This document shows positions 1,993 to 51,928 of a stretch of DNA of 64,000 nucleotides, in pieces (the stretch's first letter is position 1; the number at the start of each line of letters is the position of its first letter). The notes under the pieces were generated by a model. It did no database searches, was not told the DNA's origin, and saw only the letters and a list, made by a program, of their open reading frames with translations. This DNA comes from Weissella confusa. Its GTDB lineage: Bacteria > Bacillota > Bacilli > Lactobacillales > Lactobacillaceae. The position numbers and the translations under genes were made by a program. The stretch is taken from the NCBI RefSeq assembly GCF_004766315.1, contig NZ_PVSN01000026.1, forward strand, positions 1 to 64,000. Direction: 5' to 3'.

Positions 1993-2041
1993 TGTTTGCG
2001 CATGAATCAAACCTGATATTCAGTAAAACCTAATTTTGCGG

Positions 2042-2047
2042 TATAAT
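2042..2047 (+). promoter_or_regulatory. -10 box of recG promoter
   Basis: A perfect TATAAT lies 28 bases before the recG start. I see no convincing -35 hexamer at the usual distance. Confidence 0.5.
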
Positions 2048-2074
2048 GGTACATCAGAAAGGAAGGTGTTAAGC

Positions 2075-4111
2075 ATGGCTAGTTTATTAGATTTAGTTGA
2101 TGAGCTTGATGGTGTTGGCCCAAAGCGTGTGCAAGCGCTGAATAAATTGGGCATCTTCACAATCGACGACTTACTCGGCTACTATCCAATGCGCTATAAC
2201 GACTTAGCGATGAAAACGCCTGCCGAAACGCAAGATGGCGAAAAAGTAACGTTCAAAGGCGTTGTGACATCGCCACCCGTGGTTAACCGCTTCGGGTATA
2301 AGAAGACACGCACAAGCTTCCGTTTGACGGTCGAACATGACACAATCATGGTGTCATTTTTCAATCAACCATGGATTGGTAAGAATCTTGAAATCGGCCA
2401 AGAAGTTGCGGTGCATGGGACATATGACAAAACACGTCAAAGCCTATCTGGTATTAAATTAATGTCACGCAATGGCGATGACGAAATGGAAGCCGTTTAT
2501 CCATCATCAAAGGAAATCAAGGCGAAGACCATCAAGGATTTGATTATTCAAGCCTTGGGCAAGTATGGTGAATTACTGCGAACGGATATTGTGCCAAGTA
2601 ATTTGCGCACCCGCTATAAGCTCATGAATCATCATGACACGGTATTTGGCATGCATGCGCCAACTGATGGTCAGGTTGCGACCGAAGCACGTCGCAGTGC
2701 GTCATTTGAAGAGTTTTTTGTCTTTCAAATGCGTTTGCAAGTGATCAAGTCAATGGATCGCGATAACCGTGGTCGGGCGATTGCGTTTAATAACGATGAA
2801 CTAAAGGCGTTTATTGCGACGCTACCGTTTGAACTGACAGATGCTCAAAAGCGCGTGGTGAATGAAATTGTGCGTGATATGAAGCGTCCAATTCACATGA
2901 ATCGTTTGCTACAAGGAGATGTTGGTTCTGGTAAAACGGTCGTGGCTGCGTTGGCAATGTACGCGGCGATTACCGCTGGTATGCAAGCAACTTTGATGGC
3001 ACCAACCGAAATCTTGGCGCAACAACACGCGAAAACTATTGGTAACTTTTTCGATCCAGAAAAGGTGCGCGTCGAACTGCTAACGGGGTCAACTAAGGCT
3101 GCCGCCCGACGTCAAATTTTGGAAGATTTGGAAAATGGCGATATCGATATTTTGATTGGAACCCACGCTTTGATTCAACCGGACATCGCGTTTAGAAATC
3201 TTGGCTTGGCGGTTATCGATGAGCAACACCGTTTCGGTGTACAACAACGTGCGACGCTACGTGAAATCGGGATGAATCCAGATATTCTGGCAATGACAGC
3301 GACGCCAATTCCACGAACGCTGGCGATTACCGCGTATGGTGAAATGGATGTTTCTATCATTGACCAATTACCAGCCGGTCGTAAGCAAATTAAGACGTAC
3401 TGGCTACGTAGTAACGAGATGGAGAAAACCATCGCGTTTATAAAGTCACAGCTGCAAGAAGGGGCTCAGGCTTATGTTGTCACACCGTTGATTGAAGAAT
3501 CAGAAACGTTAGATGTGCAAAATGCCGAGGCTGTTTATGCCGAATTGTCTGAGTACTTTGCGCCAACGTATAAGGTTGGGTTGTTACATGGTCGTTTATC
3601 AAATCAAGAAAAAGAAGATGTGATGGCCGCCTTTAAGGCCAATGAGTTCCAAGTGTTGGTTTCAACGACGGTTATCGAAGTTGGCGTTGACGTGCCAAAT
3701 TCAACAGTCATGCTGATTTTGGACGCTGATCGATTCGGTCTATCGCAGCTACACCAATTGCGTGGTCGTGTTGGACGAGGTAGCCGTCAGTCATACACGT
3801 TCCTAATTAGTGATCCCAAAACGCAATACGGGATTGATCGCATGGAAGCGATGGTGGGAACGACTGATGGTTTCGTGCTCGCCCAAAAGGATTTGGAACT
3901 TCGTGGTGCCGGTGATATTCTTGGTAATCGTCAATCTGGTGTGCCTGAATTCCGTGTCGGTGATCCCGTTGCGGATTTGGCGATGATGACCGTTGCGCAA
4001 GAGGAAGCAATTGAGATTGTTTCTAAGCCTGATTGGGATAAAGATCCGGAACTGGCACCATTAGCTGACATGTTGTCAGAAACAATGGCGCGATATCGTA
4101 ATTTTGATTAA
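2075..4111 (+). CDS. recG: ATP-dependent DNA helicase RecG
   Basis: Unwinds and regresses stalled replication forks and branched recombination intermediates, using ATP. The 678-residue product has the usual RecG length. An N-terminal wedge/OB region (about 1-200) is followed by the superfamily 2 helicase core: Walker A GDVGSGKT near residue 282, the DEQH box near 382, the TATPIPRT motif after it, and the C-terminal motif GRVGRG. ATG at 2075 is chosen because GAAAGGAAGG sits just upstream and MASLLDLVDELDGVGPK matches the normal RecG N terminus; an upstream in-frame ATG at 2036 would overlap the -10 box. It is monocistronic and followed by plsX after about 100 bases. Confidence 0.95.
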   Translation: MASLLDLVDELDGVGPKRVQALNKLGIFTIDDLLGYYPMRYNDLAMKTPAETQDGEKVTFKGVVTSPPVVNRFGYKKTRTSFRLTVEHDTIMVSFFNQPWIGKNLEIGQEVAVHGTYDKTRQSLSGIKLMSRNGDDEMEAVYPSSKEIKAKTIKDLIIQALGKYGELLRTDIVPSNLRTRYKLMNHHDTVFGMHAPTDGQVATEARRSASFEEFFVFQMRLQVIKSMDRDNRGRAIAFNNDELKAFIATLPFELTDAQKRVVNEIVRDMKRPIHMNRLLQGDVGSGKTVVAALAMYAAITAGMQATLMAPTEILAQQHAKTIGNFFDPEKVRVELLTGSTKAAARRQILEDLENGDIDILIGTHALIQPDIAFRNLGLAVIDEQHRFGVQQRATLREIGMNPDILAMTATPIPRTLAITAYGEMDVSIIDQLPAGRKQIKTYWLRSNEMEKTIAFIKSQLQEGAQAYVVTPLIEESETLDVQNAEAVYAELSEYFAPTYKVGLLHGRLSNQEKEDVMAAFKANEFQVLVSTTVIEVGVDVPNSTVMLILDADRFGLSQLHQLRGRVGRGSRQSYTFLISDPKTQYGIDRMEAMVGTTDGFVLAQKDLELRGAGDILGNRQSGVPEFRVGDPVADLAMMTVAQEEAIEIVSKPDWDKDPELAPLADMLSETMARYRNFD

Positions 4112-33225: not shown

Positions 33226-33969
33226 ATGGAAATGGAACGCATTAATGAGGATACAATTCGAGTTGTGGTGACTAACGACGATCTCGCAGAACGCAGTATC
33301 TCAGTGATCGATTTGCTGGGCAACCAGGAAGAAATTGAACGTTTCTTCTACAATATCTTGGAAGAAGTTGATGTTGAGCACGATTTTGAAAACAATGAGG
33401 CTGTCACTTTCCAAGTATTGCCAAACCGAAATGGCTTGGAGTTGTTTATTTCAAAGAACATTGGTGATAAGGCCATGATGGATGGGGTTATCAACTCAAT
33501 GTTTGGAAATCGCGATGCGGGCGACGTCAACGATGATGTTTCAGATAGTTTGTTGGAGCAACTACTTGATAATGACGGTACAAGCGATCGTAAGCCAAAG
33601 GCTAACAGCCGTGCCCGTGCTGAAGAACAAGCTGCCAACCAAATGGTTAATGCAGCTCGTGAGTTGGCACGTGACAAGCAAGGTCGCCGTCAAGTTATCT
33701 TGAAGTTCAACGACTTTGAAGCGATCATCCAATTCGCTAAGATGATGCAAGAAGAAGTTGGTGATTCAAAGATTATCGAGTACAACAAGGCTTACTACCT
33801 TGAGTTGTCATTCGATGATTCAGTATCACAAACTGGTTTGCAAGACATCACCGCGGTAGCACGTGAGTATGGTGAAGTAACGCCGGTAGCAGCAGAAGTG
33901 CTTGCAGAACACGGACGTACGATCTTCGCTGAAAACGCATTGACGCAAGTGTTGTCATACTTTAACTAG
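33226..33969 (+). CDS. mecA: Adaptor protein MecA
   Basis: Adaptor that delivers substrates (such as competence regulators) to ClpCP. The 247 residues have the N-terminal substrate-binding part (MEMERINEDTIRVVVTNDDLAERSI), an acidic linker and a C-terminal ClpC-binding domain (VILKFNDFEAIIQFAKMM). Start follows GGGAAGGG. The competence-related gene for a CoiA-like protein is about 6 kb downstream. Confidence 0.94.
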   Translation: MEMERINEDTIRVVVTNDDLAERSISVIDLLGNQEEIERFFYNILEEVDVEHDFENNEAVTFQVLPNRNGLELFISKNIGDKAMMDGVINSMFGNRDAGDVNDDVSDSLLEQLLDNDGTSDRKPKANSRARAEEQAANQMVNAARELARDKQGRRQVILKFNDFEAIIQFAKMMQEEVGDSKIIEYNKAYYLELSFDDSVSQTGLQDITAVAREYGEVTPVAAEVLAEHGRTIFAENALTQVLSYFN

Positions 33970-33980
33970 AATAAAGCCCA

Positions 33981-34018
33981 AAAGCACACAATCGATTTTT
34001 CGGTTGTGTGCTTTTTTT
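33981..34018. terminator. Terminator of mecA, possibly bidirectional
   Basis: Long stem AGCACACAATCG/CGGTTGTGTGCT followed by T7 on plus. On minus the stem is followed by TTTTGGGC, so it might also stop the putative RNA at 34030-34310. Confidence 0.88.
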
Positions 34019-34030
34019 GTCGTTCACTGG

Positions 34031-34310
34031 GGGTTTGGGGTTTGTGTCGACGCGTTGCGTCGAGGCATGGTGGATATGGGGGCGGGGGTTCTCCGTCCTG
34101 CAATATAAGCTGGTGGCAACGGAGTCCCGCTCTCACTAAGCCTCAGCGTGTTTCTGCGCCTGTCGCCTTGAAATCCACTGCTGCTAAGTGATTGCTGGTG
34201 CTCCTGTCCTTGCTTGGTCACCGGCTAATATCGCAGGAGCTCCGAACCCCCGCCACGTGTTAGCGTGCCCTAGAAGGGGCCAAGCACTCCGGCCGTCAGG
34301 ACGGACACTT
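34031..34310. ncRNA. Candidate large structured RNA (long rod-like fold)
   Basis: This gene-free block is conspicuously GC-rich against AT-rich flanks. GGCGGGGGTTC (34081-34091) pairs perfectly with GAACCCCCGCC (34244-34254). Inside, TCCTGC/GCAGGA (34096-34101, 34233-34238), ATAT/ATAT (34103-34106, 34228-34231) and AGCTGGTGG/TCACCGGCT (34108-34116, 34218-34226) continue the same rod. Further in, GCTCTCACTAAGC (34129-34141) pairs with GCTAAGTGATTGC. Extra hairpins lie outside, e.g. CGACGC/GCGTCG (34049-34063) and CCGT/ACGG near 34293. No RNase P, tmRNA or SRP RNA signature was seen. The minus strand is favoured because a bidirectional hairpin could end it. Confidence 0.55.
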
Positions 34311-34465
34311 ACTACCAAATAAAACACCACAAACCAAAACCATTGACCATATACAAATCTTATAAATTAAAGAAAAAGAATTACGCCAAAAACCATTGTT
34401 TGTTGCAAAAGTTTTACAAATGAAAAGGTGGGCAATGTATCAGATGAGACTGTGCCGTATTTGGC

Positions 34466-34479
34466 AGTAAACGCTTTCA
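34466..34479. promoter_or_regulatory. cre-like box, one mismatch
   Basis: AGTAAACGCTTTCA fits the cre consensus except for the first base. Confidence 0.5.
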
Positions 34480-34627
34480 TTGTTGCTATTTTGGGATTGT
34501 TAATAAAAAAACTTACAACTTAATCACAGACTATAACCGTCAGAATTCATACTTTAGTCTTTTTGTTCGAAACTTTTACAAAATATATCTGTAATATAGT
34601 TGTTACAACGAAGCAGTAAATTGTGAA

Positions 34628-34641
34628 TGTAAACGCTTACA
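34628..34641. promoter_or_regulatory. Perfect cre box upstream of the beta-glucoside operon
   Basis: TGTAAACGCTTACA is a perfect palindrome matching TGNNANCGNTNNCA, suggesting carbon catabolite repression by CcpA. Confidence 0.8.
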
Positions 34642-34687
34642 TTAAATTATTTGCGACGTTGGATTTTCACTTTACGTAACCGAATAG

Positions 34688-36154
<1,467 letters not shown>

Positions 36155-51453: not shown

Positions 51454-51458
51454 AGGAA

Positions 51459-51546
51459 GGAGCCAACGGGATTTGAACCCGTGCGCCGGCTCAACACCGG
51501 TTCGGCGGATTTCGAGTCCGCTGCATTACCACTCTGCCATAGCTCC
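51459..51546 (-). tRNA. tRNA-Ser (anticodon CGA)
   Basis: Class II tRNA on the minus strand. Acceptor stem GGAGCTA/TGGCTCC, anticodon arm GCGGACTCGAAATCCGC giving CGA, and long variable arm CGAACCGGTG...CCGGCG. The base in the discriminator position would be T, whereas G is usual for Ser. Last gene of the tRNA cluster. Confidence 0.93.
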
Positions 51547-51643
51547 ATAACAATATTTAATATTATAAACCATGATTTTTGATTGTTTCAAGTTGAATAA
51601 ATGAAACAAAAAAGACACCCAGTAAACTGGATGTCTATCAAGA

Positions 51644-51715
51644 TAGCCCATCAGGGAGTCGAACCCTGGATGCCGGTGTGAAAAACCGGAGTCTTAACCG
51701 CTTGACCAATGGGCC
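51644..51715 (-). tRNA. tRNA-Glu (anticodon TTC), copy 1
   Basis: Acceptor GGCCCAT/ATGGGCT, anticodon loop TTTTCAC giving TTC, T-arm CAGGGTTCGACTCCCTG, discriminator A. Confidence 0.95.
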
Positions 51716-51749
51716 ATGAAAATGTTGAATGCCTAATCGACAAAGGCAA

Positions 51750-51821
51750 TAGCCCATCAGGGAGTCGAACCCTGGATGCCGGTGTGAAAAACCGGAGTCT
51801 TAACCGCTTGACCAATGAGCC
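51750..51821 (-). tRNA. tRNA-Glu (anticodon TTC), copy 2, acceptor variant
   Basis: Same as the other two copies except that the acceptor 5' strand is GGCTCAT, which turns one C-G pair into T-G. Confidence 0.93.
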
Positions 51822-51856
51822 ATGAAATTGTTTATTGATTACTTCGTTAAAAGTAA

Positions 51857-51928
51857 TAGCCCATCAGGGAGTCGAACCCTGGATGCCGGTGTGAAAAACC
51901 GGAGTCTTAACCGCTTGACCAATGGGCC
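51857..51928 (-). tRNA. tRNA-Glu (anticodon TTC), copy 3 (first transcribed)
   Basis: Identical tRNA body to copy 1; nearest to the cluster promoter. Confidence 0.95.

Follow-up and report, generated by a model that had tools for sequence, protein, structure and literature searches.

A lineage-specific interspersed repeat of exchangeable hairpin modules, probably BOX-type or MITE-like, in the Weissella confusa group

The window analyzed here is a stretch of 64,000 nucleotides from Weissella confusa, whose own genome (G000) is a 2.2-Mb draft in 95 contigs. Between mecA and the beta-glucoside (bgl) operon, the first-pass annotation had noticed a long rod-like structure at 34081-34254, for which it proposed a 6S-like or new regulatory RNA, a member of a known large RNA class, or the remains of a miniature inverted-repeat transposable element (MITE). 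The structure is real and is one module, rod1, of a dispersed repeat; the borders first given were too narrow, as the repeat unit spans approximately 34031-34318. The features of the locus are listed below.

33980-34018, plus strand: intrinsic terminator of mecA (hairpin 33980-34015 and T-run), a neighboring feature outside the element, just before its edge
34031-34048, plus strand: left end, which forms the left arm of the closing stem and contains the common GTGTC core (34044-34048)
34047-34063, plus strand: left end hairpin hpL, TCGACGC-GTT-GCGTCGA; the arm sequence varies among copies and the pairing is kept in many
34064-34254, plus strand: rod1, the structure first noticed; in complete copies it extends to a CCATGCC arm, the pairing partner of GGCATGG at 34064-34070
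34255-34287, plus strand: tail of rod3, its last 33 bases (positions 146-178 of 178, 100% identical)
34289-34304, plus strand: right end hairpin hpR, CCGGCCGTCAGGACGG
34304-34318, plus strand: right end, the right arm of the closing stem, GACACTTACTACCAA

The likeness to most other copies stops at approximately 34318-34322, and one copy extends to 34339. Minimum free energy folding of 34081-34254 on the plus strand gave an 11-bp closing helix and then, separated by small interruptions, helices of 6, 4, and 10 bp; the first three helices are those originally proposed, whereas the inner one had been given as 9 bp. The fold energy was -86.2 kcal/mol on the plus strand (shuffle mean -55.2, z -7.9) and -92.7 kcal/mol on the minus strand (shuffle mean -53.9, z -10.7), and none of 200 dinucleotide shuffles per strand equalled it. 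The motif CCTGC-ATAT-AGC-GGTG is indeed present in both arms in inverted orientation, since the rod forms a single imperfect palindrome. The match between full rod1 and its reverse complement is 68%, and the rod1 covariance model also matches the opposite strand with 30.7 bits. The contrast in base composition was likewise borne out, with 54-64% GC in 100-base windows starting at 34000-34250 against 41-42% in the left flank and 24-38% in the right flank. By inspection, the open reading frames over the rod are short and lie on both strands, and the small indels that distinguish the copies have lengths not divisible by three; on these grounds the rod was not taken to be protein-coding, in agreement with the first-pass annotation.

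Searching G000 with 33970-34400 revealed four further long matches with 83-88% identity over most of the rod, together with several additional loci holding an end alone, and a second search with a longer copy as the query brought the total to about 12 loci. A second Weissella confusa genome in three contigs, G060, holds 11 loci. Each of the two genomes thus carries many dispersed, non-identical copies. Identical dispersed copies with target duplications had been named beforehand as the mark of a mobile element: the copies are dispersed, but rod1 copies are only 83-91% alike among themselves and the evidence for duplication is ambiguous (see below).

Among 60 related genomes, 57 gave some match at E <= 1, but strong matches were confined to G013, G023, and G003, while G021 gave a weaker one (8e-13); the best match in the remaining genomes, 5e-4, was taken as chance, and G001 had no credible match. 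The exact rod1 pattern occurred in 21 stretches across 84,980 species genomes, all in records titled Weissella confusa. The rod2 covariance model, run against 397 genomes of the family, matched four (G000, G060, G013, and G021), from which G023 and G003 were absent because they were either not sampled or removed by filters. The identity of mecA to that of the window is 97% in G013, 96% in G023, and 82% in G021, values which suggest that the window belongs to the Weissella confusa group. As far as found, rod1 and rod2 appear restricted to the Weissella confusa group and one near relative. Searches of plasmids and phages with the window copy and a full copy produced no match, nor did the L061 copy against plasmids, and exact patterns of rod1, rod3, and rodX had zero matches in viral contigs. 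Two of the assemblies deserve comment. The G003 assembly (JACSZT, W. confusa FS54, loci L068-L076; completeness given as 66%) appears scrambled: at comparable loci it consists of consecutive blocks of about 197-200 bp, each the reverse complement of the corresponding sequence in sister genomes, with the block order intact. The record sets JAAOED and JQAY (L111-L131) bear the same title, W. confusa strain DSM 20196, but represent two genomes (G013, G023) with different content at the mecA site, and one of the titles is probably wrong.

Comparison of the copies revealed a common plan for the full element: inverted end, end hairpin, rod A, rod2, rod C, end hairpin, inverted end. Eight of the 11 copies in G060 are full, measuring 548-596 bp with edges set by eye, and the other three measure 258, 312, and 37 bp. 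Neighboring modules abut or overlap by a few bases wherever rod2 was aligned. The middle module, rod2, is 123-127 nt long in 28 complete aligned copies; the rods as cut are 177-214 bp, and full-length rod1 alignments span 209-214 nt. Seven rod types, which form four sequence groups, occupy positions A and C. One group comprises rod1 and rod1b, 75% alike when placed in opposite orientation; another comprises rod3 and rod3b (84% alike) together with rodY, with which they share stretches of 74-80% in opposite orientation; rod4 and rodX each match themselves alone. The module map contains the pairings rod1+rod3, rod1+rod3b, rod1+rod4, rod1+rod1b, rodX+rod3, rodY+rod3, rodY+rod3b, rod1+rodX, and rod4+rod3. 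With element ends picked by eye in 13 copies, the terminal inverted repeats of 12 copies form 8-12 pairs over their first 12 positions (8 in the G060 copy at the mecA site), uninterruptedly in two; L061 pairs at 6 of 12 only, and the two ends differ from each other in further copies as well. Four of the seven copies folded (L043, L044, L050, and L056) adopted a closed multi-branch fold on the plus strand, and the folded copies reached -0.41 to -0.56 kcal/mol per nt. A very small form of 38 bp, one hairpin between two end arms, was seen in G023 (C1:183562-183599).

The mecA-bgl gap of G060 contains hpL-rod1-rod2-rod3-hpR, 573 bp from edge to edge. The corresponding copy in the window is 289 bp long, and the 284 bp that it lacks at the junction 34254/34255 correspond to the base of rod1, rod2, and most of rod3. 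The same site holds rodY-rod2-rod3b in G013 and a lone end in G023, and the element was not seen there in the more distant G021. Since G000 is a draft of 95 contigs and G060 has the full element at this very site, the window copy could in part be an assembly artefact, in which reads collapsed over the hairpins and the locus in fact holds a full element. We consider such a collapse possible but the less likely account of the 284 bp, because other three-rod elements are whole in G000 (L038, L042, L043, and L044) and short common stretches noted by eye (CCCCGCC, ACG) can explain the junction as it stands.

For a broader comparison of sites, the flanks of the 11 G060 sites were joined into one query and searched in G000, G013, and G023, and eight of the sites recovered in one piece were compared. 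The states found were full, swapped, mini, or empty. At one site, the same mini form is present in G060 and G023 and a full element in G000 (L175, L196, and L044), and at the site of L163 in G060 the same edge bears the opposite end hairpin in G000 (L042). The sole fully empty site among those searched (G013, site of L157) fits a 5-bp duplication, GAAAA, but lies within an A-run and is therefore ambiguous. L064, once considered a clean empty site with a 5-bp duplication, was dropped as its shared part is a lone element end. Many sites are common to the compared genomes; they therefore give no sign of recent movement, and the site states are better explained by old sites that recombined or lost parts through their hairpins than by frequent new insertion. 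The MITE remnant proposed at the outset comes closest among the three initial guesses, in that the copies are dispersed, have inverted ends, and at this locus represent a shortened full element, but a clean target duplication was not obtained and the modular build exceeds that of an ordinary MITE. At L067 (G023:C6, approximately 1998-3315), an open reading frame and a terminator-like hairpin, adjoining part of rod2, rod3, and the right end, occupy the place where G000 has a full element. The product seems membrane- or lipoprotein-like by eye, and L067 represents a broken element into which a gene was inserted or to which it became joined.

The swapping of whole rods within a constant frame might also define an undescribed kind of combinatorial hairpin element, placed beside intrinsic terminators, in which a fixed scaffold offers two positions to a pool of rods and the folded single strand is recognized by shape and not by sequence. 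The scaffold would consist of the inverted ends, the two end hairpins, and the near-constant 124-nt middle rod, and the rods, of about 180-210 bp and several sequence groups, would each be kept as a hairpin. We regard this reading as a whole as unlikely.

The pairing between the arms is strongly maintained. In an alignment of 29 rod1 copies with 65 consensus pairs, 31 of which have two-sided changes, 97.1% of 1870 cells are standard pairs, and 192 cells are two-sided against 51 +/- 5 in shuffles. These statistics are inflated by related copies, and the structure was taken from the same alignment. By this count, the arms of rod1 covary strongly. Sliding of the partners abolishes the pairing signal, and further pair types are no more frequent than in shuffles (47 vs 47.8). 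Among copies less than 3% apart (three pairs), the differences at paired sites are one-sided, four against no two-sided ones (ratio two/one 0.00), whereas copies more than 15% apart (181 pairs) have 721 one-sided and 2510 two-sided differences (ratio two/one 3.48). Such a two-sided excess growing with divergence is expected from mutation followed by compensation, or from copying of one arm to the other. The pairing signal does not establish RNA as the acting form, since rod1 and rod2 indicate opposite sense strands (see below). Strong compensation could also mean a selected RNA.

This last possibility leads to a multi-copy non-coding RNA of approximately 570 nt, multi-branched and with interchangeable arms, retained for a host function. 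The near-constant module lengths of rod2 and rod1, the strong covariation, the compensation that rises with divergence, and the low fold energies per nucleotide would all suit such an RNA. However, in the seven copies examined the fold energies of the two strands differ by no more than about 8%. At pairs that are commonest as Watson-Crick, moreover, rod1 has 4 G-T against 26 A-C cells and rod2 has 29 G-T against 13 A-C cells, counts based on non-independent cells and on structures predicted for the plus strand; these asymmetries are opposite, and therefore no single sense strand fits. Copies are also lost, flipped, swapped, or reduced among genomes. A promoter scan of 33900-34700 found no promoter-like site within the element (two sites against 1.4 expected, both right of 34590), and inspection revealed no upstream sequence common to the other copies. 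No Rfam family matched the element at its gathering score in a cmscan of the window, where the four matches were tRNAs, and a relaxed scan of 33970-34700 returned only matches below cut-off. Two of the latter were considered and rejected: Ref64, which scored 27.3 bits on the mecA terminator (cut-off 44.3), and snoR44, which scored 23.2 bits on rod1 (cut-off 48). Relaxed scans of six loci with other copies gave four matches, all below cut-off, and neither the window nor these loci contained a group II intron match. Neither a 6S-like or new regulatory RNA nor a member of a known large RNA class, both suggested at first, is supported, in view of the Rfam scans of the window and of the six other loci, the nearly equal folding of both strands, and the opposite strands indicated by two neighboring rods. 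The evidence does not favor a single RNA gene, and we hold the multi-copy RNA to be unlikely. Elsewhere in the window, the minus strand carries four clustered tRNA genes at 51458-51928, three of which are almost identical copies.

Copies are in excess beside terminator-like sites. With the stricter detector, 21 of 25 copies from G000, G013, G023, and G060 lie within 40 nt of such a site, compared with 16.8% of 10,021 intergenic positions of the window, a control that relies on our own permissive detector (111 calls in 64 kb) and on gene calls from open reading frames. The 25 copies were chosen from fetched loci and thus sample G013 and G023 only in part; of the four misses, one has a site at 42 nt, and in all four only the left side was covered. 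For all 11 copies of G060, a looser detector found a terminator-like hairpin and T-tract no farther than 34 nt from one edge, against 19-23% of intergenic positions within 30-40 nt. In 33900-34700, the scan found one terminator, that of mecA at 33980-34015, where shuffles average 0.9, and in the same-species copy L133 a T-tract lies 21 nt from the element edge. This location might reflect function instead of insertion tolerance, if the host selected the string of hairpins as a terminator accessory insulating against read-through. Yet many of the sites hold mini forms or nothing in sister genomes, and the same placement is expected if insertion elsewhere harms genes. Selection as a terminator accessory therefore seems to us improbable.

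The exact 12-base end GTGGTTAGTGTC has ten occurrences in G060, all ten at element ends; when one mismatch is allowed, 20 matches were obtained against 31 for the reversed control, which puts them at background level. No transposon carrying these ends was found in G060, where the exact end 12-mers are all at the repeats themselves. Y1 transposase (Y1_Tnp, RAYT) was not detected in G000, G060, or G013, all of which carry the repeat; it was detected in three of 28 genomes, namely G021 and G023, both with the repeat, and G001, without a credible repeat match. Reverse transcriptase was not detected in G000, G060, G013, G023, or G021. Integron integrase gave only weaker partial matches and none over the TIGR02249 cut-off in five genomes, a search in which all 14 control genomes likewise gave weak partial matches, none over the cut-off, and which had no positive control. 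An element of the REPIN/RAYT, retron, or integron type, which the abundance of hairpins, the inverted ends, the swappable cassettes, and the Y1 transposase of G021 and G023 had brought to mind, is very improbable and was largely dropped after these searches, given that the carriers G000, G060, and G013 have no match to Y1 transposase or reverse transcriptase and that the integrase result, although shared by the controls, was 0/5. With no Y1 transposase or reverse transcriptase in G000, G060, and G013 and with the exact 12-base end of G060 located at elements only, the spreading enzyme may have been lost or may be yet to be found.

The evidence taken together makes it likely that the locus harbors one copy of a non-coding, lineage-specific repeat that is interspersed in the Weissella confusa group and is BOX-type or MITE-like, with swappable hairpin modules. 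The copies are dispersed and have imperfect inverted ends, end hairpins, and three abutting long-hairpin modules; the combinations of modules differ between copies and even at one site, and copies have shrunk to mini forms. The repeat might have spread in the past by means of a trans-acting enzyme whose substrates were its inverted ends and end hairpins, and the space behind a terminator could have served as a tolerated insertion site. Later recombination between common modules, i.e. the ends and rod2, might have exchanged rods A and C, whereas deletions at hairpins, such as that at 34254/34255, would have trimmed individual copies. The arm pairing may have been preserved by mutation and compensation or by one arm serving as the template of the other. 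To the host the copies are probably almost neutral, and a putative side role as a barrier to read-through behind terminators is possible.

If this interpretation of the repeat is correct, Weissella would offer a compact natural system that shuffles long hairpin modules among intergenic sites with the pairing maintained, and the evolution of hairpin DNA by mutation, compensation, swapping, and deletion could be observed by comparing the same sites in close genomes. It also carries a warning for annotation, since strong folding and covariation in a GC-rich gap may stem from a repeat and not from an RNA gene. Among open-licence papers on Weissella or on terminator-adjacent repeats, we found no description of such an element.

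Several known systems resemble the Weissella element in part. Group IIC introns prefer sites just behind intrinsic terminators, but the interior of the Weissella element is variable and no reverse transcriptase was found in G000 or G060. BIME/REP and REPIN are intergenic mosaics of palindromic units of some tens of bases each, whereas the Weissella units measure 124-214 bp and G000 has no Y1_Tnp match. MITEs share with the Weissella element the short, non-coding, intergenic nature, the inverted ends, and the lack of an enzyme of their own. They are described in excerpts of PMC10969869 as typically AT-rich and mainly derived from IS elements, and their AT-richness is also noted in excerpts of PMC3049150. 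The Weissella element, in contrast, is a GC-rich mosaic of five hairpins, with no parent bearing its ends found in G060; at 54-64% GC it does not share the AT-richness of MITEs, and we therefore call it MITE-like and not a MITE. The SPRITE repeats of Streptococcus pneumoniae are tied to the 3' ends of genes, have the strongest enrichment between convergent genes of the families in that paper, and are themselves terminator-like, with an 18-bp duplex and a U-rich tract, according to the same excerpts (PMC3049150). They provide a partial precedent for the 3'-end placement, although the Weissella element adjoins a separate terminator. An over-representation between convergent genes was reported for pneumococcal repeats and IS elements and was read by the authors as tolerance (PMC3049150), and the placement beside terminators seen here is sharper than the 3'-end enrichment reported for those repeats. 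The BOX elements of S. pneumoniae (boxA-boxB-boxC), as portrayed in these excerpts, are modular, 67-637 bp long, with inverted ends that pair in the predicted fold; they occur in 125 copies, mainly in one species group, are over-represented between convergent genes, and were interpreted by the authors as parasitic non-autonomous mobile elements (PMC3049150). Compared by plan and not by direct sequence, the Weissella element is likewise interspersed, modular, variable in size, and mainly confined to one species group, with pairing inverted ends. It differs from BOX in its approximately 11-12 copies per genome rather than 125, its GC-richness, its end hairpins, and its three different long hairpins per element of about 124-214 bp. 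BOX repeats one middle module, whereas the Weissella element exchanges entire rods that belong to several sequence groups. BOX is the nearest known kind, and the Weissella element is BOX-like in its plan while being neither a BOX element nor a MITE.
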